In this document: in pieces, positions 22,081 through 54,060 of the stretch
Layout: each line of letters begins with the position of its first letter
How positions within the stretch are numbered: the stretch's first letter is position 1
Assembly: GCF_005771565.1 (NCBI RefSeq)
Contig: NZ_VAWA01000008.1
Coordinates: forward strand, 62,001 to 126,000
Source: Nesterenkonia sphaerica
GTDB taxonomy: Bacteria; Actinomycetota; Actinomycetes; Actinomycetales; Micrococcaceae
DNA length: 64,000 bases
Reading direction: 5' to 3'
Position numbers and translations under genes: made by a program
The notes under the pieces: model-generated
What the model was told of the DNA's origin: nothing
The model's database searches: none
Seen by the model: only the letters and a program-made list of their open reading frames with translations

Positions 22081-23136
22081 GTGAGACCCCCAGTGAGACC
22101 CACCCTCAAGCGCCCCCTGCTCACCGTCGGGGTCACCAGTTATCACAGTGCCTCCACCATCACCCGGTGTCTGCAGTCCGTGGTGGACCAGTCCCTTGAT
22201 GCTTCCCGGACTGAGGTGGTGGTCGTCGATGACGGCTCCACGGACCAGACCCTGTCCCTGGTCCGGGGGTTCCGCCGCAGCGTCCCGTGGGCCCGGTTCA
22301 CCGTGCTGAGCCAGCGCAATACCGGTAATGCCTCCACCGGGCGCAACCGGATTCTTGACAGCGCCCGGGGGAAGTACGTGTTCTTCCTCGATGCTGACGA
22401 TTACCTGGGGCCGCAGGCGTTGGAGGCGATGATCCGCTCCGCGCGGCGCCACAGCTCGGAAGTCGTCATCGGACGGTACGTGGGGGTGGAGCGCTCTGCA
22501 CCCAATGTGCTGGGCGCTGAGCACTTCCCGGCACGGCAGGAGTACCACACCGGGTGGCTGAACAGCCTGCACGTGCAGAAGCTCTTCCGCGCGGATTTCT
22601 TGCGTGGACTGGGCTACCGGTTCAATCCGCAGCTGAACTATGCCAATGACCACCCGATGATGCTGCAGGCTTTCCTGCACGCTCAGCGCGTCTCCTTGGT
22701 CAATAGTGTCGACTGCTACTTCCTCACGCTCGCCGAGCAGCCCACAGGCCAGGGGCACGTCTCCCGGGCAGAGCTCTCCCCCGCCGAGCAGCTGCGGTTT
22801 CTCCATGACTGCTTCGGGGTGATTGCGCTGGCCCGCGGGCAGGGCGGCAGGAGTGCCGAATTGGCTGGCCGGGTCCGGGCGGACTACTGGAATCGGCTGC
22901 TGAAGCTTCACCTGCCCGTATTGGTCCTGCGCAAGAGCGACGACGCCGCTGCCGCCGAGTTGGGTGCCGCGGCAGCGAACCTGGCGGAGATCTACGGGGC
23001 CCAAACCTCCCGCGCCCGTCTCACCGGACCGGCGAAGAAGATGCTGCAGGCGCTGGGCACAGATTCAGGTGCCCAGCTGCGTCAGGTGGCCGCGCAGGTG
23101 CGGCAGCAGGCGAGCAGAGATGCGGTGCAGCTCTAG
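22081..23136 (+). CDS. glycosyltransferase family 2
   Basis: 351 aa. Open sequence continues far upstream, but it lies antisense to the CMP-sugar synthetase and has no coding character. The protein proper starts at GTG 22081 (RPPVRPTLKRPLLTVGVTSY). GT-A landmarks are TEVVVVDDGSTDQTLSLVRG, the NTGNASTGRNRILDSARGKY acceptor-side segment and the DXD-type FFLDADDYLG. The region NPQLNYANDHPMMLQAF holds the usual catalytic acidic position of GT2 enzymes. It is cytoplasmic with no membrane helix. It converges on the TupA-like gene and shares one CTAG for both stops. Confidence 0.88.
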   Translation: MRPPVRPTLKRPLLTVGVTSYHSASTITRCLQSVVDQSLDASRTEVVVVDDGSTDQTLSLVRGFRRSVPWARFTVLSQRNTGNASTGRNRILDSARGKYVFFLDADDYLGPQALEAMIRSARRHSSEVVIGRYVGVERSAPNVLGAEHFPARQEYHTGWLNSLHVQKLFRADFLRGLGYRFNPQLNYANDHPMMLQAFLHAQRVSLVNSVDCYFLTLAEQPTGQGHVSRAELSPAEQLRFLHDCFGVIALARGQGGRSAELAGRVRADYWNRLLKLHLPVLVLRKSDDAAAAELGAAAANLAEIYGAQTSRARLTGPAKKMLQALGTDSGAQLRQVAAQVRQQASRDAVQL

Positions 23137-24353
23137 CGTTTCCGGAGCCGGTGGTAGGCCTTGCGTGCGGCGTGGCGCAGCACCAGTGGGGCGGTCTTGT
23201 TCTGGGCTTTGACGCGTCGCCCTGCGGCCCGGTGTGCGGCCACCAGAGACTGGGTCACCTCCGGCAGCTCAGCCTCTGCTGCCACCTCGTGCTGCGCCCG
23301 GGCCAGCCGATAACCCCCTAGGCTGCCTTGGTTGTGCAGAAAGTAGGCGTAGCGCTGATATTCAGCAAGGCTGATCTCGGGATACGAGCTCAGCGCCGCA
23401 GGGTCTGCTGCCTGCAGCAGCGCACTCCACCCGTGGCTAGGGCCGGGCGCGTCCGCTTCCAAGGACGCCTGGGCCTCGTCGAATAATGAGTCCAGGGTGT
23501 CGATCATGGCGGTGCTATGGCTGAGGGTGCGCCGGTGCTCGGCACCTGAGGAGAAGGTGAACTCGCCGAATACCGGTCCGGTGTCACCGTCATAGAGGTC
23601 CACGCGCACAAACGGCGCGTCAGTCATTTTCGACAGCTCGATCGCCCACCGAGAGAGCATCACTGCTGAACGTGGTACGAGAGCTACACCGGGTTGCAGG
23701 TCTTTGCGCTTCAGGCGGTAGTCCCGCCCTTCCGCCAAAGGCCGCAGCTGCCCGTCCAGCATGGCCACCCGCGGGGGCGAGGAGTTCCGGTCGACCTGCG
23801 CCACCATGGCGATCTGACCTTGGAATGTGTAGAACTTATAGTCGTAGGGCACGGCCCCCGGCTGCGCTCCGTTGAGGAAATCCTCCACGATCCACGCAGG
23901 CTGTTTCCTGGCAAACTTCCCGGCCACCCCCTGCTGCCGTTGCCGAATGTCCTCAAGCGTCCATTCCCGCAGGGCCATATGGTCAAAGTACGTCTCCGGC
24001 CCGGTCCGCTCCAGGAGCATGACCCCCTTGGCGGACCATCCGTGTGCGAACTTCAGAGCGACCCGGTCGCCCAGCACCTCGGGGTTGATCTGCTGGGTCG
24101 AGGTCAGGACCGCGTGCTGGACGGGCAGCCCAATCCGAGTGCCGTCGAGAGTCTTATCCTTGAGCAGGCGCTGCACTGCGGTCTTATTGGACAGGTCCCG
24201 GCGGTGCTGGCTGCCCCGCTTGTGGAACTCTGCGGCGGTGAAGCTCAGAAAGGGGGAATCCTTGGTGGCTTTATCGAAACTCATTGCGGGACTGACTGTC
24301 CCAAACTCACCTGGTGGTTTCCCGAAAGGTGTCATGAGACCCGAAGAAATCAC
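23133..24353 (-). CDS. TupA-like ATP-grasp ligase, copy 1
   Basis: Up to 406 aa. Resembles the TupA-like ATP-grasp family, named after TupA of alkaliphilic Bacillus, needed for teichuronopeptide. ATP-grasp landmarks are VALKFAHGWSAKGVMLLER (phosphate loop region), WIVEDFLNGAQPGAVPYDYK with FYTFQGQIAMVAQVDR, and FVRVDLYDGDTGPVFGEFTF, where the acidic metal ligands sit. The start is uncertain: GTG 24353, ATG 24335 and ATG 24284 are all possible and none has a good ribosome site. A TACCCT box overlapping the divergent TAGGGT at 24373 favours an early start. The paralogue is at 29438. Predicted to form an amide bond on an acidic glycan or peptide; substrate unknown. Confidence 0.75.
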   Translation of the reverse strand: MISSGLMTPFGKPPGEFGTVSPAMSFDKATKDSPFLSFTAAEFHKRGSQHRRDLSNKTAVQRLLKDKTLDGTRIGLPVQHAVLTSTQQINPEVLGDRVALKFAHGWSAKGVMLLERTGPETYFDHMALREWTLEDIRQRQQGVAGKFARKQPAWIVEDFLNGAQPGAVPYDYKFYTFQGQIAMVAQVDRNSSPPRVAMLDGQLRPLAEGRDYRLKRKDLQPGVALVPRSAVMLSRWAIELSKMTDAPFVRVDLYDGDTGPVFGEFTFSSGAEHRRTLSHSTAMIDTLDSLFDEAQASLEADAPGPSHGWSALLQAADPAALSSYPEISLAEYQRYAYFLHNQGSLGGYRLARAQHEVAAEAELPEVTQSLVAAHRAAGRRVKAQNKTAPLVLRHAARKAYHRLRKR

Positions 24354-24372
24354 CTGTTCGGCTCGGGCGCAT

Positions 24373-24378
24373 TAGGGT
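24373..24378 (+). promoter_or_regulatory. -10 box TAGGGT, leaderless promoter
   Basis: TAGGGT ends 7 bases before ATG 24386. The complementary strand reads TACCCT one base over, so both divergent genes could use overlapping -10 elements in a gap of only 32 bases. Confidence 0.55.
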
Positions 24379-24385
24379 AGCCACT

Positions 24386-25477
24386 ATGAAAATACGCCGT
24401 GCGGACACTGAATCGTTTGGGGCGCAGGCCTCGCTCGAGTCCCCGTGGGAGCGGTTCATCATCGAAAAGATCCAGCCTCGGCGTCGTGAGATGAACTCCT
24501 GGGGCCAGCTCAAGAGCCACACCAAGCTCTTGGTTGATGCTGCCCGGGGGCAAAAACTCCGCCCGCAAAAGATTGGGAGCACGCACACCAGCACCTTCAC
24601 ACTGACGCGTTCGGGCACTCAGGTGGGTGGCGTCAGCGATGGCGTCTCGACATTAGTCAGTCACCAGGCGCTGCGGGCTGCGCAGTCTAGGGAAACGGCA
24701 CGGTTGCATCTGCGGCTCTCAGAAGTCCCGCACCTGGCAGCCAGGACGTTCCACATCTCCCAGGGAAACGCAGCTGCTGCGTTCATGCAGACGGTGGACC
24801 AGCCGGTGAGTGTGCGCCCCTCCTCACCCCTGAGTCGTTGGGGCGCCACCGCCAATCTCACCACAGTGAATGAGCTGGCCCAGGCGTGGGAACGCGCTGC
24901 CGAGGCGTGCGCCGGGCTGTCATCGGCCCGCCAGCAAATAGAGGTGGAGCCTTTTCTTCCATGGATCCCGTTGCGAATCTTCGTGGTGGGCGAATCGGTC
25001 GTGGCGGCCGTAGCTCGGGTCCCGCTGTACGTGGTGGGTGACGGGGAGCAGACCCTCGACGAGTTGGCCCAGAGGGAGCTGGAGGCACGGACCTCCTGCT
25101 CGTTCTTGGACCGGGTGAACATCTCTGGCCATGCCGAATTATTGGCACTTCGGGGACTGGATGCTGAGAGCGTATTAGGTGAAGGCAAGATCGAATTGCT
25201 GACCTATGACCGCAGCGGTCAGCTCGGTCTTGGCTGGAGCTTCGAATTCCCCGGCCAGCTTCCGCAAGATCTGGGCGAGTTGGCTGTCAGCGCGGTCTGG
25301 GCCTTCCCTGGACTCGGTGCTTCCGCGGTGGACATTCTCACCCCCTCAGTGTCAGACGGCACTGGTGCTGTGGTGTGCGGGGTGGAACCGGCGGCCGACC
25401 TGCGTGAATTCCGGTATCCGGCGTTCGGAAATTCGCAGTTGCCGCACCGCAGCATCATGGAGCGGATCAGCGCCTAG
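24386..25477 (+). CDS. ATP-grasp-like protein (cyanophycin-synthetase/RimK-related), copy 1
   Basis: 363 aa, leaderless start at ATG 24386. Paralogue of the 28395 protein: shared features are QIEVEPFLPWIPLRIFVVGE against VLVEEFIPGVDLRAYVV, VVAAVARVPLYVVGDGEQTL against VAVAVRLPPFVVGDGMSSLE, and AFPGLGASAVDIL against FPGLRAAGVDLI with a following acidic patch. The end NSQLPHRSIM parallels NSVVHQYPAFGHP. In this copy the terminal E-x-N-x-x-P metal/active motif of ATP-grasp enzymes (ELNTAP in the other copy) reads GVEPAAD, so catalysis may be impaired or changed. It pairs head-to-head with a TupA-like ligase. Confidence 0.68.
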   Translation: MKIRRADTESFGAQASLESPWERFIIEKIQPRRREMNSWGQLKSHTKLLVDAARGQKLRPQKIGSTHTSTFTLTRSGTQVGGVSDGVSTLVSHQALRAAQSRETARLHLRLSEVPHLAARTFHISQGNAAAAFMQTVDQPVSVRPSSPLSRWGATANLTTVNELAQAWERAAEACAGLSSARQQIEVEPFLPWIPLRIFVVGESVVAAVARVPLYVVGDGEQTLDELAQRELEARTSCSFLDRVNISGHAELLALRGLDAESVLGEGKIELLTYDRSGQLGLGWSFEFPGQLPQDLGELAVSAVWAFPGLGASAVDILTPSVSDGTGAVVCGVEPAADLREFRYPAFGNSQLPHRSIMERISA

Positions 25478-25872
25478 GCAGTTGGCGGGGTGTTCCGTCC
25501 GATGAGGTCCTCCACGTGCTGCCGGTGATTTTCAAACGCAGCCAGCATCCGTCGTTCGGCGGCCTCGAGGCGGCCTTCAACAGAGTCCAAGGTCCGGAAC
25601 CGCTCCTCGGTGCGCTGGTCCACCCGCCGGATCCCCGCTGTGGTCTCACGAAGCTGGGGGCCCATGCTGCGCACCAGCTCGCTCATGCGCCGTGCGGAAC
25701 GGGTCATTGCCGCCAGCGTAAAGACCACCAGGACCACGAACACCCCAAAGCTCACCACTGCCGACGCCGCTGCCAGCGCCCAGGCGCCCAGCAGTATCGC
25801 GATCAATGAAACAAGCAGTCCCAGTGCGATGAGTGACAGCAGCCCCAGCTGTCGAACGGACAAACCTTTCAC
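25474..25872 (-). CDS. small membrane protein with coiled-coil tail
   Basis: 132 aa. Two adjacent membrane helices (LGLLSLIALGLLVSLIAILL and AAASAVVSFGVFVVLVVFTL) are followed by a charged helical tail (~65-125, ELVRSMGPQLRETTAGIRRV...RLEAAERRMLAAFENHRQ) likely to form a coiled coil. It starts in a 4-base overlap with the glycosyltransferase gene upstream, so it is translationally linked to it. It may help anchor the big glycosyltransferases at the membrane; this is inference. Its stop shares a CTAG with the convergent ATP-grasp gene. Confidence 0.7.
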   Translation of the reverse strand: MKGLSVRQLGLLSLIALGLLVSLIAILLGAWALAAASAVVSFGVFVVLVVFTLAAMTRSARRMSELVRSMGPQLRETTAGIRRVDQRTEERFRTLDSVEGRLEAAERRMLAAFENHRQHVEDLIGRNTPPTA

Positions 25873-28373
25873 GGCAGTTTTTCCTCCTCTGTGATGACGT
25901 GGCCGCCAGCGACGACGGCATCGATCAGATCACGAAAGCCCCTGCTGCGGCATAACGTGGCGAATTCTACCCCGCGGTGGGACTGCCGCCGAAAGGCCTC
26001 AGGGCTTCGGGAGTAGCCCGTCAGCGTCTGCTGCACCGCACCGGCTTCAGCGTAGACGGCCGCGGTTCCATAGACAGGCTCCAGCCAGGGCGGGAGCACC
26101 GCCACACACCCTGATGCGAGTGCCTCCAGCACCGGCAGTTCGCACTGGACCCCGGCCCGTGGCTGCGGGTAGTGCACAAAAAAGTCCAGCGACCTGTAGT
26201 ACGTACGCCGGTCAATGTCACCGGGTTGGAAGCTCAGCCACGCTGCGGGGAGCTTCTCTTGCCCCATCAGGTTCAGTAGGGTGGCGGTGTCCCCGTAGAA
26301 CCGCACATCAGCGGACCCGTCAGTGGGCCAGATGCGCGCAAAGTCATCGGTGGTGCCTGGCCATTGCCAGGCGGTCTCCCCGGCCCACCGGCCGATGACC
26401 GGCCCCATATTCGGGCGCCGGCGCGGGCCCGGCCATAGGTCGGGGTCGAAGCTGGCGGTGTAGTCCTGCGTGGTGAGCTCGCCCGGGCTCAGCAGCTGGT
26501 TCAGCTGCGCGCGGGTGGTGGGGTCGCCGGGGATCCACCTCGGCCTGACGCCGAAGAACTCTCGCGCCTGAGCTGAGCAGAGGGCCGGCAGATAACGGAC
26601 GGTGAAATCGCAGCCGTCTACCGGGGGTTTTCCGGCTACCACCGCAGAGTGCTTGACTGTGAAACTCACAGCTCGCGACGGTAAGAACTGCACCAGCTCC
26701 GGCGCGCACACAAGCATCAGTGTGACGTTGTGGAACGGCTCGTCTGCCATCACATGCGTCACTTCGCCTGCGGAGATAAGTGCTTGGACCGGCTGGGTGT
26801 AGGTCCGCGCATAGCGGGAGAGGTGGATCGCGTTTTCCAGGTGCATCACCCCCACCCGGCAGCCGTGATCGACGAGGTCTCGGATCTCCGCCAGTGCGGC
26901 AGCTTGGGTCTCGCCGTGCTCACACCAATCAGCGGCGAATACGACGTCTAGGGGCCTGGCTTCCAGGACGGAACCTGGAGCTGCGGTGAACCGTGGCGGC
27001 ACATAGATCGGATGTGGTTTCTCGGCCGTTTGCCTCAGTTGGGGCTTGCTGGCTGCGGAGTGCCATGTGCGGTAGCTGCTCCAGAAGGCCCGCCGGGCGG
27101 GGTGTTGCCACCCTGCCCGGAAGTCTGCCCGAGACAGTGAATCGGGCTGGATACGCATGAAGATCAGCGGCTCCGGGATCGCGTACACCGCGTGACCGGT
27201 GTAGGCGGAGATACGGTCCCGCATTTCATTGTCAGCGGCTTTGCGGGCGGGGATGTACCCGCCGAGTTCACGCATGATGGAGGCACGCACCATCAGTGTC
27301 GGCGCTGAGGGGATGAACGGACTGTAGCCGCGCCGGATGCGAACCAGATCTTCGGTCATATTGACGGTGTACACCTGGTTTGCCGGACGTCGGGGATTGC
27401 GGAGAAGGTCATTGACCTGGGTCTGGAGGCGTTGCGGGTGAGACCAGTCATCCGAGTCCTGGCCGGTGAGGAACTCGCCCCTGGCATAGGCGATGCCAAC
27501 ATTGCGAGCAGCATAGGTGCCACTGTTGGTTTCCAGGCGGATCACGCGCACGCGTCGATCCAGCTCCGCGATTTCCTCCAGTACCGGAGCGTAGCCAGCC
27601 GGAGAGGCGTCGTCGACCACGAGCAGCTCTAGACGGGCCCAAGTTTGGTCGAGGATGGACCGCGCCGCTTGCACCGCATCCTCCCGTAGGGGTTTGAAGC
27701 ACGTCATAATAACGCTCACCAGGGGCCCTTGGGGCTGGGGGGCGAGTTCAGGCGCTGCGGTGAGTCGGTTGAACGGCACGTCATCACCGTCCCGTAAGGT
27801 AACCGGGCGCAGGTCTCGCCGAGTGAACTGCCAATTGAACTCGCGCAGCCAACGTTTCCAGGCTGCGGTCCTCAGGCCGGGACGGACGTAGGGGTTCCGG
27901 GCATCCACACTGAGATAGGAATGGAAGGGGCGGCGCACGCTTGGGCGCTGACTGAGCAGTTGGTCGAGTTCGGTATACATCCCCTGTTCGAAGTACAGCT
28001 CGGCCAGTAGCTTTTCCAGCCGGGGGGCTTCATTTCCCGCGCCGGAAGCGAGCGCTATTTCAAGAGCCTTGCAGGCAATAGCAGTGTCATCCGGTCTCAG
28101 GTCTTGCAGTGCCGTCACATACGCGAGCCGCCCCAGCGCCGGCGCGTTTAAAGAGATCCCCGTGACCCCGCCGCCGAGCAGCTTGGTGCTGAGCTGATCG
28201 AAATCGAGTGTGCCGTGGCTGGCGGCGAAAGCCAGAAGCTCACGCATCTGCACTGATTCACTGCGCAGCGCGGTGCGCTCGAGGGCAAAGTCGACTGTCA
28301 TGGCGTTGTCCAGGTACAGCCTCATCAGGCGGGCTCGCAGGAGCGCCTCGTTCTCGGCAGTCAAAGAGCTCAT
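25869..28373 (-). CDS. bimodular glycosyltransferase (GT2 plus GT-B-like C-terminal module)
   Basis: 834 aa from ATG 28373, chosen because CCGGAG lies 5 bases upstream; a GTG at 28379 is possible. Residues 1-210 are a helical region. Residues ~215-440 form a GT2 module: VSVIMTCFKPL, LELLVVDDASPAGY, the ETNSGTYAARNVGIAYARGE segment and the DXD-type TGQDSDDWSHPQR. Residues ~485-820 form a second module starting PLDVVFAADWCEHGETQAAA. It ends with a GT-B/GT4-like nucleotide-site pattern (DFFVHYPQ, CELPVLEALASGCVAVLPPW, EPVYGTAAVYAEAG). The same architecture occurs in the 30492 protein. Probably two sequential transfers or polymerisation on a lipid-linked acceptor. Confidence 0.82.
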   Translation of the reverse strand: MSSLTAENEALLRARLMRLYLDNAMTVDFALERTALRSESVQMRELLAFAASHGTLDFDQLSTKLLGGGVTGISLNAPALGRLAYVTALQDLRPDDTAIACKALEIALASGAGNEAPRLEKLLAELYFEQGMYTELDQLLSQRPSVRRPFHSYLSVDARNPYVRPGLRTAAWKRWLREFNWQFTRRDLRPVTLRDGDDVPFNRLTAAPELAPQPQGPLVSVIMTCFKPLREDAVQAARSILDQTWARLELLVVDDASPAGYAPVLEEIAELDRRVRVIRLETNSGTYAARNVGIAYARGEFLTGQDSDDWSHPQRLQTQVNDLLRNPRRPANQVYTVNMTEDLVRIRRGYSPFIPSAPTLMVRASIMRELGGYIPARKAADNEMRDRISAYTGHAVYAIPEPLIFMRIQPDSLSRADFRAGWQHPARRAFWSSYRTWHSAASKPQLRQTAEKPHPIYVPPRFTAAPGSVLEARPLDVVFAADWCEHGETQAAALAEIRDLVDHGCRVGVMHLENAIHLSRYARTYTQPVQALISAGEVTHVMADEPFHNVTLMLVCAPELVQFLPSRAVSFTVKHSAVVAGKPPVDGCDFTVRYLPALCSAQAREFFGVRPRWIPGDPTTRAQLNQLLSPGELTTQDYTASFDPDLWPGPRRRPNMGPVIGRWAGETAWQWPGTTDDFARIWPTDGSADVRFYGDTATLLNLMGQEKLPAAWLSFQPGDIDRRTYYRSLDFFVHYPQPRAGVQCELPVLEALASGCVAVLPPWLEPVYGTAAVYAEAGAVQQTLTGYSRSPEAFRRQSHRGVEFATLCRSRGFRDLIDAVVAGGHVITEEEKLP

Positions 28374-28394
28374 AAGCACTCCGGCTCGCAGGTG

Positions 28395-29441
28395 TCAGAA
28401 AGCGCTAACAAGCGCATGCGTCACATTCCTGGGGTGGCCGAAGGCGGGATACTGGTGGACTACGGAGTTGGGTGCAGTATTGAGTTCGATGATCCGAGCC
28501 CCCTTCCCCGTCCTCGGGTCCTGGGAAATCAGGTCCACCCCTGCTGCACGGAGTCCGGGAAAGGTGGCCACAGCGGCTACTGCCATATCCTTGACGAGGG
28601 GGGACACCTCCTCTGTGACATCCACGCTGACTCCGCCAGCAGAGAGATTGGCTGTGGCGTTGAGGAAGATGATTTGATCTTTCGCCGGAATACTTTCCCC
28701 TCCCATGGATTGGCTCTGCAGGACTGTGGAGTCGATTTGGATCTGCTTGGTCCGCAAGTAGGCATGGACCTCTCTGGACTCTTTGAGAAACGCAATGAGT
28801 GCCTCCAACGAGCTCATGCCATCCCCGACGACAAAGGGCGGAAGGCGCACCGCGACGGCGACAGCCGCGTCATTAACCACGTAGGCACGAAGATCGACGC
28901 CGGGAATGAACTCCTCGACGAGCACCTCCGCCTTGCTGGTCGCCGGCGCTGCGGCTGTCGCCCGTCCCCATGCCCACTCAAGCCCTGTTTGTGAGACGCC
29001 CACGCTGATTCCGGCGCCCTGTCTGCCGCTGGCAGGCTTCACCACCCAACTGCTCTGGGGCGCCTTGGCGACATAGGCTTGCGCCTCGCTGAACCGGTCT
29101 GCTCGGAAGGTTCGTCCGGCCGGCACCGGCGTTTCGGCGGCTCGAGAGAGGAGGCGTTTGGTCAGGTCCTTGTTCCGAACTGCTGCGGTAGCGGGCGATG
29201 AGGCCAGCGAAGGCGTCATGCCATTGAGCATTCCGCAGGGGGCCCCGTTTCGGAGGATCGTCATCAAACGTCCTTCGCGCTCGACCGTGAGACCCAATGC
29301 TGCTGCGGAGTCGGCAACGTCCGCTTTGTGGCCCGGCCATCGGGAAAAGCGGTTGAAGTGTGTCCACTCCGGAACCCATAGTCGGATTGCTGTTTCCATG
29401 TCTTCCCACAGCAGGTCCGGAATCGCTGCGTTGGTGATCAA
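28395..29441 (-). CDS. ATP-grasp ligase (cyanophycin-synthetase/RimK-related), copy 2
   Basis: 348 aa. Start set at TTG 29441, which overlaps the upstream stop (TTGA) and follows AAGGAGGT closely; longer reading to 29567 overlaps the previous gene. ATP-grasp elements are KDLTKRLLSRAAETPVPAGR, SSWVVKPASGRQGAGISVGV (phosphate loop), VLVEEFIPGVDLRAYVVND, AVAVRLPPFVVGDGMSSLEA, and ARIIELNTAPNSVVHQYPAF with the E-x-N metal motif intact. This layout is that of enzymes that ligate amino acids to carboxylates through acyl phosphates. It sits between a TupA-like ligase and glycosyltransferases, so amino-acid decoration of a uronate polymer is plausible. Substrate unknown. Confidence 0.75.
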   Translation of the reverse strand: MITNAAIPDLLWEDMETAIRLWVPEWTHFNRFSRWPGHKADVADSAAALGLTVEREGRLMTILRNGAPCGMLNGMTPSLASSPATAAVRNKDLTKRLLSRAAETPVPAGRTFRADRFSEAQAYVAKAPQSSWVVKPASGRQGAGISVGVSQTGLEWAWGRATAAAPATSKAEVLVEEFIPGVDLRAYVVNDAAVAVAVRLPPFVVGDGMSSLEALIAFLKESREVHAYLRTKQIQIDSTVLQSQSMGGESIPAKDQIIFLNATANLSAGGVSVDVTEEVSPLVKDMAVAAVATFPGLRAAGVDLISQDPRTGKGARIIELNTAPNSVVHQYPAFGHPRNVTHALVSAF

Positions 29442-34043: not shown

Positions 34044-34107
34044 TGTGCGCAGTTGTCCCCTACCTGCCCACGAGGGGGCTGAGTTCACCACAGGCAGACT
34101 AACAGGA

Positions 34108-35250: not shown

Positions 35251-35284
35251 TGATGGCTCCTCGAACCCGAGTACGAGGAATAGT

Positions 35285-36520: not shown

Positions 36521-36535
36521 TGTGTTAACTCCTGA

Positions 36536-37582: not shown

Positions 37583-37760
37583 GCTGAACATCCTTGGGTT
37601 TAGCGTCCTTTATCTTGGTGGTTCGGTATGGGGTGGTCGCGCGCTGAAGGTTTCTGGCGCCGTAGCCGACCTGCTGGAAACTCTAAGTGCATCTCAACCG
37701 GGTCACAACCCGACGGCAATCGCTTAGTAATCCTCACGCACTCCTCAGGAGGGGGACCTG

Positions 37761-40437: not shown

Positions 40438-40460
40438 GGGGCCTCCTGCTCGCTGGTACC

Positions 40461-41750: not shown

Positions 41751-41862
41751 TGGTGAACGACCTTCACTTCTCTTGGGATGTGTTAAACAGGCTCTGCGGA
41801 ACCAGTAGCCAAGCATACCGGTGCCAGTCAACTATGCTTCTCGACGCCCGATGATGGTCCGA

Positions 41863-41868
41863 TAGGCT
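41863..41868 (+). promoter_or_regulatory. -10 box TAGGCT, leaderless promoter
   Basis: TAGGCT ends 6 bases before ATG 41875. TCGACG at 41841-41846, 16 bases upstream, could be the -35. It drives the plus-strand wing of the glycan locus, divergent from wbpA. Confidence 0.55.
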
Positions 41869-41874
41869 GACGCC

Positions 41875-44624: not shown

Positions 44625-44630
44625 AACAGC

Positions 44631-46296: not shown

Positions 46297-47625
46297 GTGA
46301 CGAGCGTGAACTCAGAATACATCACTAATGAAGCGGAAGTCGGCTTCCCCCCACTGCAATCATCGCGCCGGGCCGTGTGGGCCTATTACAGAATCGAGTT
46401 TCTTCCAGACGGTTATCCGGGTCGAAGGACTCAAGACGAGCTCTTTGCTCACCCACTTTACGGGCCGTATGTGATCGCAGATTACGTGCACCAGTTTCGG
46501 ATGACCAAAAAGCAGGCCTACCTGGACGCTGCCTGCAAGGTGGCCGATGCTGCCTTGGCACACATGACATCCGTGGGTGAAGGTCTGGCGTTCATCTACA
46601 GCCAGGAGAAGACGAAAGTGTCCCGGAAGAAGGGCTCCTGGTACAGCGGACTGACTCAGGCCCGTTACGTCGATGTTTTTAACAAGCTCTTGGCCTTGCC
46701 GGGTACGGAAAGGTTCCAGGGGCCACTCTCGGGCATCCTGTCGAGCCTGGAGGTGCCCGTTGGGGAAGGCGGCGTCGCGGGGGCCGCCGATAACGGTGGT
46801 CTCATCATCGAGGAATATCCTTCACTCGCCCCAGATTGCACGCTTAACGGGTGGACGACCGCCACCTGCATCCTCCGTGATTACGCAAAAGCTAACAACG
46901 ATGAGCAAGCTTGGAACCTTTTCGACCGCTCAGTGCGCGGGCTGGAGGCACTCGTCCCGATTTACGACGTCCCTGAGTACGCTACTTCCCGATACAAATT
47001 GAAGGGGCCAGCAGCGGTCCGTCTGCAGCCCGAGAGCACCGAATTGACCGTTAAGTCCGTTCAGGTGGACATACCTGGCGCAGGAACGTTCGACGCTAAC
47101 TCCGATCTGGATCCGGGTGGGGCTGCGCTTCCGAAGGGTCCGCGGCGCATCAAAATAGGACAGAAACAGTCCTTCACAGTCGAACTAAGCCGACGAACTT
47201 TCCCAAAGCCCAACACTGTTTTGTTTGCAGTTGAAGCAGCGGAAAATGGATCAGTAAGAGCATCTATTGGGGATAATACTTACGACCCGATGACAAGCCT
47301 GGTAGTTCCCAAGTTTGAAAACGACTTAGGTACCTTTGAGGTACATCAGGGAACTAATTTTATTGAGGTACCCGTACCCTGGGTCGAAGCGGAGCTCATC
47401 GCGTACCCGACGAACTTTGGCAAGGCAATCGCGGGTCGTCAGTTCAACCAGTACCACTGGATTCATGTCGATACGCTCTCAAAGATCGTCGACGAGACCG
47501 ATAGCGACCTGTTGCGGTACTACCGTGACCGGTGGGAGAGGTTCCCCAAAAAGTGGCGAGCCATCTCGGAGTATCAGGATGAGCGAATCACCCTTGACCG
47601 GTTCGACGCGACGTTGCATAAGTAG
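46297..47625 (+). CDS. D-glucuronyl C5-epimerase-like protein
   Basis: 442 aa from GTG 46297 (GGAG eight bases or so upstream). The (alpha/alpha)-barrel part shows the C5-epimerase C-terminal motifs: AHPLYGPYVIADYVHQF, KGSWYSGLTQARYVDVFNKL (substrate-cleft Tyr), GGLIIEEYP and CTLNGWTTATCILRDY. A beta-rich section (~240-370) follows and a short helical end. C5-epimerases flip uronate residues within a polymer (GlcA to IdoA in heparan and heparosan). With no signal peptide it would act in the cytoplasm on a growing uronate chain. Specificity unknown. The gene overlaps the convergent gene by 38 bases. Confidence 0.72.
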   Translation: MTSVNSEYITNEAEVGFPPLQSSRRAVWAYYRIEFLPDGYPGRRTQDELFAHPLYGPYVIADYVHQFRMTKKQAYLDAACKVADAALAHMTSVGEGLAFIYSQEKTKVSRKKGSWYSGLTQARYVDVFNKLLALPGTERFQGPLSGILSSLEVPVGEGGVAGAADNGGLIIEEYPSLAPDCTLNGWTTATCILRDYAKANNDEQAWNLFDRSVRGLEALVPIYDVPEYATSRYKLKGPAAVRLQPESTELTVKSVQVDIPGAGTFDANSDLDPGGAALPKGPRRIKIGQKQSFTVELSRRTFPKPNTVLFAVEAAENGSVRASIGDNTYDPMTSLVVPKFENDLGTFEVHQGTNFIEVPVPWVEAELIAYPTNFGKAIAGRQFNQYHWIHVDTLSKIVDETDSDLLRYYRDRWERFPKKWRAISEYQDERITLDRFDATLHK

Positions 47626-49093
47626 GGAGGCCCACATTCAAAGCTAGAATCTCTGCAGCAGAGAGAACCGTAGCGCCGAAAGCAGCCGTAGGAGGATGGC
47701 GGTACGCCATTGCATTTATGCGTCGCTTGATGCTCGGATCCCACGGAGCCAGTGTCGCCCAAGCTCCGGAATAGGTGTCCGTGCGTCCAAGCCGGGGGGC
47801 ATTTATCCCGTCTCCTGGAAGCCACCGCAGAGTGGCGGCGCTCTTAATTCTAAGCATGAAGTGGCGACGGAAAGACAAAGCGACCGAACTCAGAACGGCA
47901 TCGGGGATCAATTTGTCGCCGATGTGCTTCCATTCCGAAAGGGCACGCACGCGCGTAGTAGCGTGCGAGCTATCCTCCGCCCGGGGAACAGCCGCAACTC
48001 TGCGTTCGGATACTGGTTTTTCCCTCACCACTCCAGAGAATACTTCGCTGTCGACCGGATAGTAGTACCATGGGTGCGGCAGCGAACCCGAATCGTATGC
48101 TTCGATTTCTCTAAGGAACCTCCGAGTAAGCGAAATCCCAAAACTTAGAAAACCCGGATCACTCCGCCGGTGTCCCAATGTCATGAACGCCGATGCGGCG
48201 TCAACGACATGATTGTGCGGAAGGTCGAGGCCGAGCCTCCGTCCGGGAAAATCTGGGGGTGTAACATACCACGGCTGACCTGCGCGTGTGCGGATTTCTG
48301 GGTCGTGGAACAGCAGGGCCTTTTCCGCAACTGTCACCAGCTCTCCGGGAGTAATCTCGGGGTCGACCGCCTGCACGCCTGCGCATTCGAGCGCCTCGGC
48401 GGCACATACCAAGGCGTGAGCGATCTTGCCTGTATGGATTAGGTGAGGGGCAAACTGCTTATTGAGGGACAACCTTCCAGCAGACAATGAGGTCAGGTCG
48501 AGGGGCTCGGGGAGCCCCCGTAGGAGCACAGCGAACGAAGCACTCAGCTGGGACAGAACATCAGGCAGGTAGTTTCGGTGCCCAGGGACTAACGATGACT
48601 CTGGCGAAGACCATCTCCGGCCCCCCGCACGGGCTGCCCGGATGATCGCCGTGGTCGCGCTGGGGCGCTCGATAGTGATGCTGTCTGCGACAGCTTGCAG
48701 ACAAATCGTCGTGCTGCCAAACTTCCCTACAGTTGCAGTACCCGCAGTGTACCTGGAGCCAGCAGACCAGACAGGTCCGCTCTCCCCGCGCCAGTTAGTA
48801 AAACCAAGTTTGTCATCCGTACGTTCGGCCACATGCTTCGCCCACGTAACGGCCTGCCGAAGATGCAGCGGGTCACTAGTCACTCGCCAGGCTAAACACG
48901 CTGCACGGATGAGCAAGGAGACATCCCATGCGAAATGTCCATCCTCGTTGGATCGGTACGCGCGATCGTGTTCAATCATCTCACCCATGACGTGGAGCCC
49001 TCGGCAAGTAATTTTGGCGTAGGCCTCTCGGACGTCGGCGCTCCTCGGACTGCCCGGACCAGTCACGTCAAAAGGTACGGAGTCGTGGTCCAT
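47588..49093 (-). CDS. uncharacterised (alpha/alpha)-toroid-like protein
   Basis: 501 aa; AGGAGA seven bases before ATG 49093. Rich in Trp, His and Tyr, with repeated helix pairs of a six-hairpin barrel (FAWDVSLLIRAACLAWRVTS, LIHTGKIAHALVCAAEALEC, HNHVVDAASAFMTLGH) and a probable active-site strip (GSLPHPWYYYPVD). It could be a glycan lyase, hydrolase or a second epimerase-like protein; I cannot name the family. No signal peptide. It overlaps the C5-epimerase-like gene tail-to-tail, which with the shared fold suggests work on the same polymer. Confidence 0.55.
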   Translation of the reverse strand: MDHDSVPFDVTGPGSPRSADVREAYAKITCRGLHVMGEMIEHDRAYRSNEDGHFAWDVSLLIRAACLAWRVTSDPLHLRQAVTWAKHVAERTDDKLGFTNWRGESGPVWSAGSRYTAGTATVGKFGSTTICLQAVADSITIERPSATTAIIRAARAGGRRWSSPESSLVPGHRNYLPDVLSQLSASFAVLLRGLPEPLDLTSLSAGRLSLNKQFAPHLIHTGKIAHALVCAAEALECAGVQAVDPEITPGELVTVAEKALLFHDPEIRTRAGQPWYVTPPDFPGRRLGLDLPHNHVVDAASAFMTLGHRRSDPGFLSFGISLTRRFLREIEAYDSGSLPHPWYYYPVDSEVFSGVVREKPVSERRVAAVPRAEDSSHATTRVRALSEWKHIGDKLIPDAVLSSVALSFRRHFMLRIKSAATLRWLPGDGINAPRLGRTDTYSGAWATLAPWDPSIKRRINAMAYRHPPTAAFGATVLSAAEILALNVGLPTYATSRRTGQG

Positions 49094-49188: not shown

Positions 49189-50259
49189 TCAACGACGTGT
49201 ACTGATCACGGCGTCAGTGCCGTCGGCATGAATGACGAATGGTGTTCCAGCGAGGCTTTGAACTTGAACGACCAAGACCACTGCGTCAGCGGAGTCTGAG
49301 ACCCGCTGTGCCATATCGCCCTGCCGCAGCGTCCACGGCACATGGTGGGTGTTGTAGTCGACCGCGAGGGTCTCGTCCCAGTACTTGGTGGTGCCCGTGA
49401 CCTCCCCGTCGGCGTTCAGCCAGCGTGCAATGACCCGAATCCGCACGGTGGATGACTCACGACCGGTCATCGATTCCAGGCAAAGGTTCTCTCCCGTTCC
49501 GCCATCCCGAGACCCTCCGACGACGGTACAGGAAGTCAGGCGGACGGTTGTGCTCATGCTATCCAGGACGGCGGGATCATCGACTTTCAAGCTCAAGACG
49601 TATTCGGCCTGTCCTGTCTGTACTAAAGTGGCATCGTCGAGTCGATCTAGGGCCAAGAGGTGCTCCCCGTCGGGGGATTCGCTTCGAAGGTCTGCCTGGA
49701 CTGCAAGTGATGTTAGTCCGTCTTCGGTACTCTCGATAAATGGGGCCGAAGCCAGCAACGCGCATTTGAGTGCTTTTTCGGTGGGCGCAGTCAGCGCCTG
49801 GCCCGAGACATTGCCGCCATGTGCAAGAAAGACGTTAGTGCTCAGTTTGCCGTCTGACTGCATTTCGGCGCGTCCGTCGTCATCGTGGCACTCAATGCGG
49901 AAGGCGACCATCGCTGCCCGTGGCGCCGCCGCAGCCAGAGACTCGACATTAACGTCGTAAGGCAGCAGAACAGCCCCACTTGTGCCCGCCGGGATGTCCA
50001 CCTTCGCGACTATGACGTCTTGACTGCCGAACTCAACCTCCGTGGTGAGCGCTGAAGTGTCCGAGGCGTCTGCGTCACGCCCGTCACCCTCACGCTGTTC
50101 CGTGTCGTCTAGGCCTGGACTGGTCGTCGCGAGAGTAATCACGACCGTAAGGACGACAAGGGCGAGTGCAGATCCTACCAAAGTTAGCCAGAAAAGAGCT
50201 CCGAATTTGCCGTTGCCGGTGGGGGGATCAGCGACAGGAGCCGTGTGACGGTCAGCCAC
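49189..50259 (-). CDS. membrane-anchored protein of unknown function
   Basis: 356 aa from GTG 50259 (VADRHTAPVADPPTGNGKFG), overlapping the end of the glycosyltransferase gene by 8 bases. A single membrane helix (~LFWLTLVGSALALVVLTVVI, residues 22-43) is followed by an acidic linker and ~290 beta-rich residues likely outside the cell. Two cysteines in LTSCTVVGGSRDG and NLCLES may form a disulphide. No enzymatic motif is seen. Translational overlap ties it to the GT4 gene, so it may assist polymer handling at the outer surface. Confidence 0.6.
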   Translation of the reverse strand: MADRHTAPVADPPTGNGKFGALFWLTLVGSALALVVLTVVITLATTSPGLDDTEQREGDGRDADASDTSALTTEVEFGSQDVIVAKVDIPAGTSGAVLLPYDVNVESLAAAAPRAAMVAFRIECHDDDGRAEMQSDGKLSTNVFLAHGGNVSGQALTAPTEKALKCALLASAPFIESTEDGLTSLAVQADLRSESPDGEHLLALDRLDDATLVQTGQAEYVLSLKVDDPAVLDSMSTTVRLTSCTVVGGSRDGGTGENLCLESMTGRESSTVRIRVIARWLNADGEVTGTTKYWDETLAVDYNTHHVPWTLRQGDMAQRVSDSADAVVLVVQVQSLAGTPFVIHADGTDAVISTRR

Positions 50260-52453
50260 GGGCGCGCGCACTTTCTGCCAGCACTTCGGCCTGCAGCTCC
50301 CGATAGAGCTTGGCATATGCCAGGACGTTCGCATCCCAAGACCGTTCGCGGCGCACCCACTCAGCTCCCTGCCGACCGAGCCGTTCGCGGAGCTCTTCGT
50401 CGTGGACCAGCTCTGACAGCACATTCGCAAGCGCACCAGAGTCATCTGCTGGAAAAAGCCGACCAGCCCCGCCGGAGTCTCGGGCAATCTCCGCCAGCGC
50501 CTCAACATCGGACATCACAACGGGCCGTCCCGTGGAAAAAGCCTCAAAGGGTTTTAGTGGCGTGACCAATTCGGTCACCCGCGTCCGGCGACGAGGCACT
50601 ACGAAGACATCGATTGCGTGGTAGTACTCAATTACCTCTTCGTGGGGCACCTTGTCGGTAAAGATGACGTCGTGCAACCCCTCCCGCGCTGCATAGCGTT
50701 TCAACTCCTCGAGGTGTCTGCCTCCTCCCACCAGCAGCAGCCGAACGTTCGGCGTGACATCACGGAGTTGCCGGTAGGCCGATATCAATACCTCGATACC
50801 CTCATACTCCACCATGGAACTGATGTACCCGAGGACGACGTCGCCGGGAGCCAACCCAAGGTCAGCACGAAACCCCGCAGAACGAGGCTGGAGAGGGAAA
50901 TCGGCGGGGTCTACAGCGTTTCGCGCCAGATACACGTGATCTGCTCGCACAGCACCATCAGGGCTTTGCTCAAGGATCGAATCCTTCATCGTCTGCGCCA
51001 GGGTCACATTGCGATCCGCCCGCTCCCGCACCCGGCCCTCAATGTATCGGCGTCCGAGATAAAGGTGTGGATAACCGTAGGTTCGGGAGATCAGCTCAGG
51101 ATCACCCCACTCGTTGGATTGCCCGATCCGTGATAACCATGTCTCTTCCCAGAATCCGCGGGTCTCGTACACGACTGGTATCCCGACGGCTTCTCCCACG
51201 TGAGTAGCCAGTACACCATTTATGAAGTCGGAATGCGCGTGAATGACGCTGGGCCGTACTTGCTGAACGAGGGCGTAGAGCTCTGCGGCATTGCGGCGCA
51301 GCCATGCTTTTCGGCTGGTCTGGTTAGCCGGCAGTCCACCGAATTGCACCACTGGAGTGCCGTCAACGTCCCCGCGTGTGGTCTTTTCAAGTCCCTCACC
51401 GTGATTACCTGCGGTCTGAACCGCCACCACTGAGTCGATTCCTTGGCGACGAAGCGCATCCACTGTGTACTTGGTGCGAAGGGTGTACCCTGTTTGCGTT
51501 TCCGGATAGGACTTCCCGACCATGTGAAGCACGGGCCCCGCCGGGTCGTGAAAGGCCGTGCGGGGAAAATTATCGAGAAGGTCCCACGGATCGTTGTGGA
51601 ACTGGCATTCATAGGTCAGTTGTTCCACGGTCTGCCGATCTGCGTCATCGTTCTTCCGCCGCGAGACTTCGCGCATGGAACAGAGAGCAAAGCGGATGTA
51701 ACCAGTGCGCCGCGCATGGTAGAAGATCTTTTTAAGTTCTCCGATCCTGAGGCGCGAGTATAGGTCAAAGGCGTCGACCACAGCTTGGGCTTCCAACAAG
51801 TGACCCCCGGCTATCAGCGCACTGGCCACAGTGGGGGCTTCCGCCTCCTTAAGCACTACCCGCAGTGGAATCCGATCGTACAACGTTCGCCGGAGACTCA
51901 TGAGCACACCGATGTCTTGCGCGTTGGGTAGACCGGAATTCGCGCGCTCTGCCGGGACGGCCCCCTGGAGACGGAACCCAGTCTCATAATCGGAGGTACC
52001 TGACAAGGGGCTAAATTCCAGATTCTTTACGGTCGCGGAACCCACCCCAGCGGTGCGCACCGAGAGGACCAGAGAGCGGGTATGCGGGTCGGTCACAAGA
52101 ACTCCACGTTTCTTGTTATCTACCGCCCAGCGAGCTACCCGCTGACCCAGCTTGTCGAATTCATGGATCACCAATTGAGCAGCCGCTCCGCCCGTTGTTA
52201 CCGCGTTCAGCCATGCGCTGTAGGCGCTTCCCGGGTCCACGGCGATGCCCTTGCCCTGCCTCAAGCGCTTCAAATCCTGCGGGGTGGCTTGGAGGGTCAG
52301 ATGCCGGGGAGCTTCAGTGGGCTTCCTGATGCGCAGGTGACCGCTATCGCTGACACCCATCTCGACATCACTGTTAGAGCCTAGGTGCCATCTGTTGACC
52401 CAGGTCGGGGCTCCAACGAAGCCCGGCACCGGGAAACCAAGCCCATGGGACAT
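50252..52453 (-). CDS. glycosyltransferase family 4 with long N-terminal extension
   Basis: 733 aa from ATG 52453, chosen for AGGAGG four bases upstream. Residues ~1-150 look like a beta-sandwich (GHLRIRKPTEAPRHLTLQAT onward), ~165-300 are helical, and ~315-725 form a GT4 enzyme. GT4 landmarks are LHMVGKSYPETQTGYTLRTK, VIHAHSDFINGVLATHVGEA, VYETRGFWEETWLS, LARNAVDPADF, LLLVGGGRHLEELKRYA, VFVVPRRRTRVTELVTPLKP followed by FEAFSTGRPVVMSDVEAL. The appended beta-sandwich parallels the 30492 protein. It follows the NeuB-fusion gene by 32 bases. Confidence 0.83.
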   Translation of the reverse strand: MSHGLGFPVPGFVGAPTWVNRWHLGSNSDVEMGVSDSGHLRIRKPTEAPRHLTLQATPQDLKRLRQGKGIAVDPGSAYSAWLNAVTTGGAAAQLVIHEFDKLGQRVARWAVDNKKRGVLVTDPHTRSLVLSVRTAGVGSATVKNLEFSPLSGTSDYETGFRLQGAVPAERANSGLPNAQDIGVLMSLRRTLYDRIPLRVVLKEAEAPTVASALIAGGHLLEAQAVVDAFDLYSRLRIGELKKIFYHARRTGYIRFALCSMREVSRRKNDDADRQTVEQLTYECQFHNDPWDLLDNFPRTAFHDPAGPVLHMVGKSYPETQTGYTLRTKYTVDALRRQGIDSVVAVQTAGNHGEGLEKTTRGDVDGTPVVQFGGLPANQTSRKAWLRRNAAELYALVQQVRPSVIHAHSDFINGVLATHVGEAVGIPVVYETRGFWEETWLSRIGQSNEWGDPELISRTYGYPHLYLGRRYIEGRVRERADRNVTLAQTMKDSILEQSPDGAVRADHVYLARNAVDPADFPLQPRSAGFRADLGLAPGDVVLGYISSMVEYEGIEVLISAYRQLRDVTPNVRLLLVGGGRHLEELKRYAAREGLHDVIFTDKVPHEEVIEYYHAIDVFVVPRRRTRVTELVTPLKPFEAFSTGRPVVMSDVEALAEIARDSGGAGRLFPADDSGALANVLSELVHDEELRERLGRQGAEWVRRERSWDANVLAYAKLYRELQAEVLAESARARG

Positions 52454-52485: not shown

Positions 52486-54060
52486 TCAATACTTATGGTG
52501 TTCGCTGGCGGTGATCTTCTTTTGGGAGGACCCAACGTGCAATTGCGCCTGCCGGATGGCGTCGACATATTCCGTGAAGGCCTCAGTGGTGAGGTCTACG
52601 GCGACAGCGTCGAAGTGGGCCCATTCGGTATGGCCGAGCTTGACGTGCTTCTCCACCATCTGCGCTCCGGCCGCTACCGCGAGCGCAGAGGCCATCCACC
52701 CGTAATCATGACTTGAATAGCCGGGGATGATGCGCGGACCGCCGTGGCCATTCTGCTCCTGGGCTAGATGCGCATAGTGGCGCACAACCCCGATGTTGGT
52801 GTGTTCATCAGGTGTGGGGTACGCCGAATTGCAGTGCAACAGATACAGCCGATCCTGCCGGGTGAAGGTTTTCAGCAGCCACTGCTCATAAGCCTGGTCC
52901 GTCATGCCGGTGGACACCACCAGCGACCCCGAGTAGTTCTGCGCGACGAACTCCAGGTACTCCTTCTTCTCCGAAATGGTCGAAGGCAGCTTCACCATCG
53001 GTACATCAAGCTCACTGGTCATCCACTCAAAAGAGGGCTGGTCCAATACTGAAACAAACCACCCAATGCCTAAGTCCTGGGTCAGCTGATCCAGGAACTG
53101 AAAGCCCTCCTTGCCGAGCTCCAGCTGTCGGCGATAGTCGCCGAACGTGGATCCGTAAGGGGACTTATACGGAGACTTCAGCTGCTCAGAGGTATAGAAC
53201 GTATTCACATCCCGCTTTTGCACCTTCACCCAATCGGCCCCGGCCGCGTGCGCGGCGCGCACGAGTTTCTCCAGCCGGTCCAGATCGCCGAAATGGTTCG
53301 TGGTGATTTCCGCAGTGATCTCGACTGCGGGCAATTCCACATCCGGGTAGTCCACTGGCTCTGGCAGAGGCGACTCTGCCACGGAGACGTGGTAACGCTC
53401 GTTGAGCAACTCAGGGGTCAGATCAGAGAAGTCACGCGTGCCTACGTGCCGGACGTCGAGGTTCGTGTCTTCCAGGGTGTAGAGCGCGTTCTGCAGGATG
53501 TACTCCTGCAACTCCATACCCGCCCGACGGCGTGAGGACAGCTCCGGGCTGTACTGGGACGCGGCAGCGCGGGCTTGACCAGCATCGGGGGTGAAGTCGA
53601 AGCCCACCATGTAGACCGTCTGGGTCCGGTCACGATGATCGGCGATAGCGCGGGCGATCTCTAATGCAGTGAGGAACATAGCCTCCTCAATGGCCACCTC
53701 GCTGCGATCCTGGAAACGCAGCAGCACCTGGTCCTCAGCGTCGTTGGACAGCGGGCGGAAGGGCAGGCGCACCACTTTCCGGTCCGGGGCATGAAAACTG
53801 GTGGAGGTCACATAGGCAGCGGAGCGCAGCCCGTCCTCTGCCACGGACTCCCCCACCCAGTCCTCGTAGAAGATAGTGATGTCGGTGGGGTGGATACGTT
53901 CGGCGTCATTGACTCCAATGACGACCGCGTCCTTGAAGACTCGTGAATGTACCTGGTCCGCTGACGGACCCTTCCCAAGGATCACGATGGTGTCCGAACT
54001 GTACTTCTGCGCAGTCGAGGCCGCCAGGTGAGCAATCGCTTCAGCGGATGACTTCATCAT
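52486..54060 (-). CDS. fusion of a Rossmann (GT29/DUF115-like) domain with a NeuB-type nonulosonate synthase barrel
   Basis: 524 aa from ATG 54060 (start uncertain; AGGTGA lies 11 bases upstream). Residues ~22-235: TIVILGKGPSADQVHSRVFK, VIGVNDAERIHPTDITIFYE and VYMVGFDFTP, a Rossmann domain like the glycosyltransferase-related domains at 15704 and 17364. Residues ~247-510: NeuB TIM barrel, AEITTNHFGDLDRLEKLVRA, AGADWVKVQKRDVNTFY, VPMVKLPSTISEK, LLHCNSAYPTP, PGYSSHDYGWMASALAVAAG and MVEKHVKLG. NeuB enzymes condense phosphoenolpyruvate with an N-acetyl-hexosamine-type sugar. The C-terminal antifreeze/SAF domain that usually completes the NeuB active site is missing; the protein ends soon after the barrel. 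Confidence 0.78.
   Translation of the reverse strand: MMKSSAEAIAHLAASTAQKYSSDTIVILGKGPSADQVHSRVFKDAVVIGVNDAERIHPTDITIFYEDWVGESVAEDGLRSAAYVTSTSFHAPDRKVVRLPFRPLSNDAEDQVLLRFQDRSEVAIEEAMFLTALEIARAIADHRDRTQTVYMVGFDFTPDAGQARAAASQYSPELSSRRRAGMELQEYILQNALYTLEDTNLDVRHVGTRDFSDLTPELLNERYHVSVAESPLPEPVDYPDVELPAVEITAEITTNHFGDLDRLEKLVRAAHAAGADWVKVQKRDVNTFYTSEQLKSPYKSPYGSTFGDYRRQLELGKEGFQFLDQLTQDLGIGWFVSVLDQPSFEWMTSELDVPMVKLPSTISEKKEYLEFVAQNYSGSLVVSTGMTDQAYEQWLLKTFTRQDRLYLLHCNSAYPTPDEHTNIGVVRHYAHLAQEQNGHGGPRIIPGYSSHDYGWMASALAVAAGAQMVEKHVKLGHTEWAHFDAVAVDLTTEAFTEYVDAIRQAQLHVGSSQKKITASEHHKY

Follow-up and report, generated by a model that had tools for sequence, protein, structure and literature searches.

The 64,000-nucleotide window analysed here (bases 62001 to 126000 of contig C75 in the 2.79-Mb draft genome of Nesterenkonia sphaerica) carries a large cluster of sugar, glycosyltransferase and ATP-grasp genes, and we consider it reasonably probable that this locus makes an amidated surface glycopolymer with nonulosonate (sialic-acid-like) residues and uronates of the N-acetylmannosaminuronic acid (ManNAcA) type. 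A first-pass annotation had described a teichuronopeptide-like wall polymer system with four ATP-grasp enzymes at 23133-54060. Codon-score gene calling recovered both ends of this locus (the end of TupA1 at 23133 and the start of NeuB at 54060), and together with family scans it placed every listed component where it had been reported. The nonulosonate genes for NeuA and two sialyltransferase-like enzymes (15704-21999) lie outside these limits and had been missed. Since its parts recur in other Nesterenkonia genomes, the locus is not a chance cluster. Its genes are as follows (window coordinates, strand, description and basis):

15704-17350, minus: GT29a, related in its C-terminal domain to the sialyltransferase-fold part of GT29b (about 40% identity in C-terminal alignment)
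17364-19370, minus: GT29b, TPR-like part and sialyltransferase-fold domain (predicted structure of the C-terminal 255 residues)
21280-21999, minus: NeuA-like cytidylyltransferase (PF02348 31.7 bits, cut-off 22.6; PseF model below cut-off)
22204-23136, plus: GT2c glycosyltransferase, true start probably upstream (PF00535 68.8 bits)
23133-24284, minus: TupA1, TupA-like ATP-grasp, catalytic positions kept (PF14305 43.6 bits)
24386-25477, plus: RimK1, degenerate RimK/cyanophycin-synthetase-like ATP-grasp (residue alignment)
25474-25872, minus: 132-residue protein, neighbour of GT2a in the genus (sub-threshold Pfam matches only, one to Wzy_C)
25869-28373, minus: GT2a glycosyltransferase (PF00535 85.8 bits)
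28395-29441, minus: RimK2, RimK/cyanophycin-synthetase-like ATP-grasp ligase, catalytic residues kept (TTG start, AAGGAGG upstream)
29438-30499, minus: TupA2, TupA-like ATP-grasp with isoleucine in place of the first lysine (PF14305 111.6 bits)
30492-34043, minus: GT2b large glycosyltransferase, 8-base overlap with TupA2 (PF00535 79.2 bits)
34108-35250, minus: WecB UDP-GlcNAc 2-epimerase (TIGR00236 437.9 bits, cut-off 210)
35285-36493, minus: WecC UDP-ManNAc dehydrogenase (PRK11064 571.9 bits, cut-off 459)
37761-38753, minus: WlbA/WbpB-like Gfo/Idh 3-dehydrogenase (best NCBIfam model below cut-off)
38753-39844, minus: WbpE-like DegT aminotransferase (PF01041 396.8 bits)
39841-40437, minus: WbpD-like N-acetyltransferase (hexapeptide repeats; NeuD-type model below cut-off)
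40461-41750, minus: WbpA-like nucleotide-sugar dehydrogenase (TIGR03026 295.8 bits, cut-off 189.8)
41875-42948, plus: WbpI-like 2-epimerase (TIGR00236 253 bits, cut-off 210)
43010-44533, plus: GT4 glycosyltransferase (family scan)
44829-45893, plus: GT4 glycosyltransferase (family scan; 70% relative near neuB in G160)
46306-47625, plus: glucuronyl C5-epimerase-like protein (PF06662 77.1 bits)
50252-52360, minus: GT4c glycosyltransferase (family scan)
52486-54060, minus: NeuB-type nonulosonate synthase, N-terminal extension of about 245 residues (PF03102 137.2 bits)
3197-4474, minus, in the flank: LytR-CpsA-Psr (LCP) protein, candidate wall-linking enzyme (PF03816 136.3 bits)

ATP-grasp enzymes of the locus

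Two open reading frames, 23133-24353 and 29438-30499, pass the TupA family model PF14305 (cut-off 25 bits). In an alignment that left out one sequence (L062), TupA1 keeps all seven of the compared ATP-grasp positions, which we take to be the catalytic columns. TupA1 orthologues with 59-66% identity are found in named Nesterenkonia records and in Garicola koreensis. RimK2 has K, K, D, E and N at the ATP site, so that both lysines, the aspartate and the E-x-N pair are kept, and it aligns with the ATP-grasp domains of cyanophycin synthetase (PDB 7wac, E 2e-30) and of bifunctional glutathione enzymes. It falls short of the cyanophycin synthetase equivalog (170 bits vs a cut-off of 850, covering positions 200-468 of 862), and a search of genome contigs confirmed no named relatives of RimK2. 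GT2b and TupA2 overlap by 8 bases; the overlap of TupA2 and RimK2 is 4 bases long (TTGA), and AAGGAGG, a strong ribosome-binding site, lies just upstream of the TTG start of RimK2. All four ATP-grasp genes reported earlier are present, and two of them, TupA1 and RimK2, look fully competent because their catalytic residues are kept. The idea of four active ligases was rejected on the residues of RimK1, and TupA2 lacks its first lysine.

TupA and RimK-like genes are found close together in other genomes. Among the matches listed for the genus, 10 of 54 TupA matches have a RimK-like gene within 2 kb (vs 0.45 expected) and 24 of 54 within 25 kb (vs 4.6 expected); these expected counts assume uniform placement, and the two G158 matches on either side of RimK1 may belong to a single gene. 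A RimK2 query matched 12 of 149 genomes of the family, comprising 7 of 7 listed genus genomes and 5 of 142 others (Fisher P 2.8e-9), where the first fraction rests on the listed matches and 117 unlisted non-matching genomes are assumed from the listing order to lie outside the genus. Within the family outside the genus, 4 genomes have both families, 1 RimK only, 8 TupA only and 129 neither (Fisher P 1.5e-4), with two of the four, G093 and G140, representing one genus.

Pairs of TupA and RimK-like genes beside wec genes, for which the first-pass annotation had suggested a search, exist in G140 and G107. In G140, from another genus of the same family, 18 kb hold genes for WecB (66% identity), a glycosyltransferase, TupA, an ATP-binding cassette (ABC) ATPase, an ABC-2 permease, WecC (59%), two RimK-like proteins and a double GT4, together with one for an LCP-like protein that shares 39% identity with that of the window. 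TupA and both RimK-like proteins of G140 keep all compared residues, and its WecB and WecC pass curated cut-offs. In G107, which belongs to the genus of the window, 16 kb contain WecB (75%), a WecC-like gene (33%), TupA and a pair of RimK-like genes; one of this pair keeps all four catalytic residues and the other three. In G146, a stretch of about 24 kb includes RimK, two copies of TupA and a gene for an LCP-like protein, and 40 kb show no WecB or WecC match, while in G093 TupA stands beside glycosyltransferases and the RimK-like gene, 45 kb away, lacks two residues. Pairs of TupA and RimK near wec and export or ligation genes therefore recur, though not everywhere. In addition, three tandem TupA matches lie between a bacterial sugar (priming) transferase gene and GT2 and WecG/TagA genes on contig C3 of G089 (L084:9413-17085), and tandem pairs of TupA matches also occur in G042, G152 and G168.

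Nonulosonate and uronate genes

The gene set of a teichulosonic-acid-type polymer is present, with a NeuB synthase, a NeuA-like cytidylyltransferase and a sialyltransferase-fold transferase (one of the two was modelled). The predicted GT29b C-terminal domain (255 residues, mean predicted local distance difference test score (pLDDT) 80.9) retrieved sialyltransferases at all of PDB ranks 1-32, both mammalian GT29 enzymes and Campylobacter CstII, with 5cxy titled only "a glycosyltransferase"; the best E value was 7.2e-5 and ten matches had E ≤0.001, at template modelling scores of only 0.26-0.47. No Pfam family matched the catalytic domain of the GT29a/GT29b tandem (15704-19370) at E 0.01. The closest sequences and folds of NeuB are PseI, NeuB and SpsE, and the N-terminus of its model is poor (mean pLDDT 67.1). 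Based on these NeuB matches and the fold of GT29b, the polymer is expected to carry a nonulosonate. To our knowledge, bacterial relatives of GT29 are few, and these sialyltransferase-fold enzymes with TPR-like parts add to them.

This nonulosonate set (NeuB, often with NeuA and sialyltransferase-like enzymes) is the recurrent part of the locus in the genus. NeuB is whole-length in 18 of 30 Nesterenkonia genomes and broken in one more. We compared 17 genus tracks, 16 of them reaching neuB (the track of G169 was not carried that far) and several cut by contig ends. On seven tracks GT29a, GT29b and NeuB occur together in the gene order of the window, usually preceded by a histidine phosphatase and with NeuA, GT2c, the 132-residue protein and GT2a in between. 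NeuA-like genes are found on 11 of the 17 and GT29b-like genes on 10, of which those of G153, G159 and G166 are on the opposite side of neuB. Over the 17 tracks compared, the ManNAc3NAcA cassette is specific to the strain of the window. WecC relatives (69-72% identity) occur on four (G155, G160, G157 and G066), and WecB (G155) and the C5-epimerase (G160) on one each. TupA is present in 25 of the 30 genomes, and in G159 and G169 it lies 7 kb and 32 kb from neuB, beyond the compared stretches.

For the uronates, WecB and WecC both pass the equivalog cut-offs for the route to uridine diphosphate (UDP)-ManNAcA. The Wbp-like block at 37761-42948 has all five enzyme types, with no pathway-specific model shown above its cut-off and, among the models shown, an NCBIfam cut-off passed only by the WbpA-like and WbpI-like genes. 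As only these two pass, the route to UDP-2,3-diacetamido-2,3-dideoxymannuronic acid (UDP-ManNAc3NAcA) is deduced from the set of five, which, judging from sequence, probably makes this sugar nucleotide. The closest solved chain to the WbpA-like dehydrogenase, 4r16, is titled hypothetical UDP-ManNAcA dehydrogenase. The C5-epimerase-like protein matches C5-epim_C (PF06662) and, weakly, a glucuronyl C5-epimerase in the PDB (E 0.008).

A degenerate RimK family beside neuB

RimK1 is a paralogue of RimK2 with R, R, D, G and E at the ATP site, so that K-K-E-N has become R-R-G-E and both lysines and the E-x-N pair are lost. No Pfam family matches it at E 0.01, and cyanophycin-synthetase models match at about 1e-17, far below their cut-offs. 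RimK1-like matches (E ≤0.001) occur in all 30 genus genomes, with at least 2-14 per genome (mean 6.7). Among the matches listed (36 RimK1-like sequences, two per genome), a RimK1-like gene lies less than 1 kb from neuB in 11 of the 18 genomes with whole-length neuB and 14-28 kb away in four more, including that of the window (27 kb); the remaining three have none on the contig of neuB, which in two of them is ≤23 kb long. Ten of the 11 close neighbours were aligned: none has all four catalytic residues, and the first lysine is kept in none. In a tree of 32 RimK-like sequences (out of 34, after dropping one duplicate and one of fewer than 300 residues, and accepting E or D at the third position), the 11 that keep all four residues require 2 changes of state vs a mean of 9.4 with shuffled labels. 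For RimK1-like genes, the ratio of nonsynonymous to synonymous substitution rates (dN/dS) was measurable in two pairs, both from genomes other than that of the window, and indicates purifying selection (0.149 for G153/G159 and 0.042 for G157/G066); in a third pair, G161/G166, dS is saturated and gives no ratio. The lack of intact neighbours of neuB, the clustered residue state and the low dN/dS together point to a maintained pseudoenzyme. RimK1 as a decaying pseudogene was considered and set aside, with its open reading frame and the low dN/dS of its relatives speaking against it. Why a degenerate ATP-grasp recurs next to neuB is a concrete puzzle about pseudoenzymes that lends itself to testing.

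RimK-like ATP-grasps are also found in large proteins of the genus, at L100:7973-10750 and L100:12096-14687 (G000:C12) and at L086:17175-19103, L087:2582-4978 and L088:4150-7038 (G138:C12). The first has a mandelate-racemase-type (enolase-superfamily) N-terminus and an acylphosphatase domain, the L086 protein an acylphosphatase domain, those of L087 and L088 carry PGA_cap, and the second of L100 has no other recognised domain. These proteins may form an amino-acid-polymer system of their own in the genus.

A putative amidated surface glycopolymer

Gene content, gene overlap, recurrence, residue state, co-clustering and the sialyltransferase fold of one enzyme were observed, and from them we infer the substrates, the amine, the order of steps and the attachment to the wall. 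The product would be a surface and probably wall-linked glycopolymer whose nonulosonate component is recurrent in the genus and to which a strain-specific cassette would add ManNAcA-type uronates. WecB and WecC would supply UDP-ManNAcA, the Wbp-like set presumably UDP-ManNAc3NAcA, and NeuB with NeuA a cytidine monophosphate (CMP)-nonulosonate. Sialyltransferase-like, GT2 and GT4 enzymes would then assemble the repeat, the acid groups of which would partly be amidated in the cytoplasm during chain growth. Here, like Cj1438C of Campylobacter, the TupA-type ATP-grasps would activate uronate carboxylates with ATP and couple them to an amine. A second amide bond would come from RimK2, whose translation is coupled to that of GT2b and TupA2, with this enzyme most likely lengthening the first residue or capping a different carboxylate. 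RimK1 would be a pseudo-ligase that probably binds a substrate or partner enzyme, a role at which we can only guess. If amidation is true, the TupA reaction worked out biochemically in Campylobacter would extend to actinobacterial walls, and TupA, RimK, WecB/WecC, an ABC exporter and LCP together would be a gene signature for amidated wall polymers.

Several observations weigh against this interpretation. The polymer itself is predicted from gene content. Among the scanned locus genes, several of which match no family, no exporter, polymerase or priming transferase was recognised, and LCP and PF00953 enzymes are found in the flank or elsewhere in the genome. TupA2 keeps only six of the seven compared positions, and the amine joined by TupA-type enzymes may not be an amino acid. 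The complete Wbp-like set is found on none of the 17 genus tracks and TupA on only four (G158, G012, G157 and G066); no TupA match is found in three genomes whose NeuB is whole-length (G153, G166 and G156, the last being 65% complete), so TupA is not obligatory. Finally, in a class-wide sample of 394 genomes (18 with TupA, 97 with RimK2-like matches), the association of the two families is weak (P 0.03); many of these RimK2 matches lie in frames of 600-1300 residues, which may be cyanophycin synthetases.

Related systems and alternative explanations

The closest precedent is the capsule locus of Campylobacter jejuni HS:2. The C-terminal TupA-like domain of Cj1438 (Cj1438C) has been shown to be a uronate amidoligase, which joins either (S)-serinol-phosphate or ethanolamine-phosphate to the C6 carboxylate of glucuronic acid (GlcA); the GT2 to which it is fused was inactive on unamidated glucuronides (PMC11800379). 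Both systems combine GT2 and a TupA-like ATP-grasp, fused there and encoded by overlapping genes here, with a uronate in the repeat, a predicted one in our case. Unlike the locus described here, HS:2 uses GlcA in a Gram-negative capsule, and its description, as far as it goes, mentions neither a RimK-like ligase nor a nonulosonate. Our literature search, with most subscription journals outside its coverage, found nothing joining Nesterenkonia with ATP-grasp and nothing joining three of amidoligase, wall polymer, uronic acid and ATP-grasp; judging by abstracts, "TupA-like" is linked to an amidated polysaccharide only in Campylobacter work. RimK2 resembles cyanophycin synthetase and RimK amidoligases in aligning with the ATP-grasp domain and keeping K-K-E-N, yet it has only 348 residues. 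Taken together, the amidated polyanionic glycan of the first-pass annotation is the best joint reading, given the Cj1438C precedent, the co-clustering and the G140 locus, but not in the form of a strict teichuronopeptide. The Bacillus polymer of this name consists of polyglucuronate and poly-γ-L-glutamate (PMC8153356). Like the tupA locus of the alkaliphilic Bacillus halodurans C-125, the one studied here has TupA-family genes and an expected acidic product; unlike it, ManNAcA-type and nonulosonate sugars are expected, and no polyglucuronate or poly-γ-glutamate gene could be assigned among the locus proteins scanned (polyglutamate genes were not searched genome-wide). Lacking recognised genes of both pathways, this is not a teichuronopeptide locus proper, and the strict version was rejected as unproven. 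A polymer more loosely of this kind, in which TupA and RimK2 equip a polyuronate with a peptide side chain or co-polymer resembling polyglutamate as a means of tolerating alkali, seems quite unlikely to us: TupA membership, the amino-acid-joining cyanophycin- and glutathione-synthetase ATP-grasps nearest to RimK2, the PGA_cap domains that G138, a genome of this genus, has fused to related ATP-grasps, and a TuaD-like dehydrogenase on contig C34 (below its model's cut-off) would fit, but the scanned locus proteins include no assigned gene for UDP-glucose dehydrogenation, and the TupA amine need not be an amino acid.

Micrococcus belongs to the Micrococcaceae, as does Nesterenkonia. Known polymers of actinobacteria would make it conceivable that the product is a plain, unamidated teichuronic or teichulosonic acid and the ATP-grasps are relics, since the wall polymer of Micrococcus luteus, which shares the ManNAcA building block, is described as a ManNAcA-Glc teichuronic acid (PMC3005890) and Streptomyces coelicolor as having a teichulosonic acid with Kdn (PMC7831098). 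The degeneration of RimK1, the lysine missing from TupA2 and the many neuB tracks without TupA agree with this, yet the catalytic residues kept in TupA1 and RimK2, the low dN/dS in both RimK1-like pairs and the recurrent TupA/RimK pairing make it improbable. The M. luteus repeat, so far as its description goes, has no nonulosonate or amide, and compared to actinobacterial teichulosonic acids, likened here by polymer rather than by gene set, our locus adds the uronate cassette and the ATP-grasp ligases. Similarly doubtful is that the ATP-grasps leave the glycan unmodified and make a soluble amide or peptide (an osmolyte or a sugar N-acyl precursor) in the manner of N-acetylglutaminylglutamine synthetase, whose model RimK2 matches at E 3e-34 under the cut-off. 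The abundant RimK-like paralogues, several of them away from recognised sugar genes, are in line with this, but the overlap of the ligase genes with GT2b, their repeated linkage to TupA and sugar genes and the Cj1438C precedent favour a glycan substrate. A bolder form of amidation in Nesterenkonia and its relatives, in which TupA begins by attaching an amine to the carboxylate of a uronate or nonulosonate, RimK extends it as in cyanophycin and the conserved dead RimK paralogue, often a neighbour of neuB, serves as dedicated carrier or regulatory subunit, is a tentative and on balance unlikely proposal; if true, this two-stage decoration would define wall polymers of a glycan-peptide class in which a pseudo-ATP-grasp takes part.

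Other features of the window

At 44-48 kb the GC content of the window drops to 56%. A scan of 24200-42000 for promoter-like sites gave none, which is weak information for an actinobacterium. A minus-strand open reading frame at 22027-23004 was rejected as a gene because the plus-strand GT2 gene covers the same bases. At 36536-37591, where the sugar operon passes from WecC to the Wbp-like genes, it also encodes a lone phosphonate-type substrate-binding protein, and a 501-residue open reading frame at 47588-49093, convergent and overlapping with the C5-epimerase-like gene, has a low coding score and no Pfam or NCBIfam match. Between GT29b and NeuA, the protein encoded at 19397-21232 has a GmrSD_C-type domain in two stretches and, by eye, a signal-peptide-like start, with relatives in G158 and G161. 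A glutaminase gene (55555-56607) lies directly beyond neuB, and partial glutaminase matches near neuB are also found in G165 and G151. Gas vesicle genes (two GvpL/GvpF and one Gas_vesicle) are located at 8396-12617 within the wall-polymer neighbourhood.

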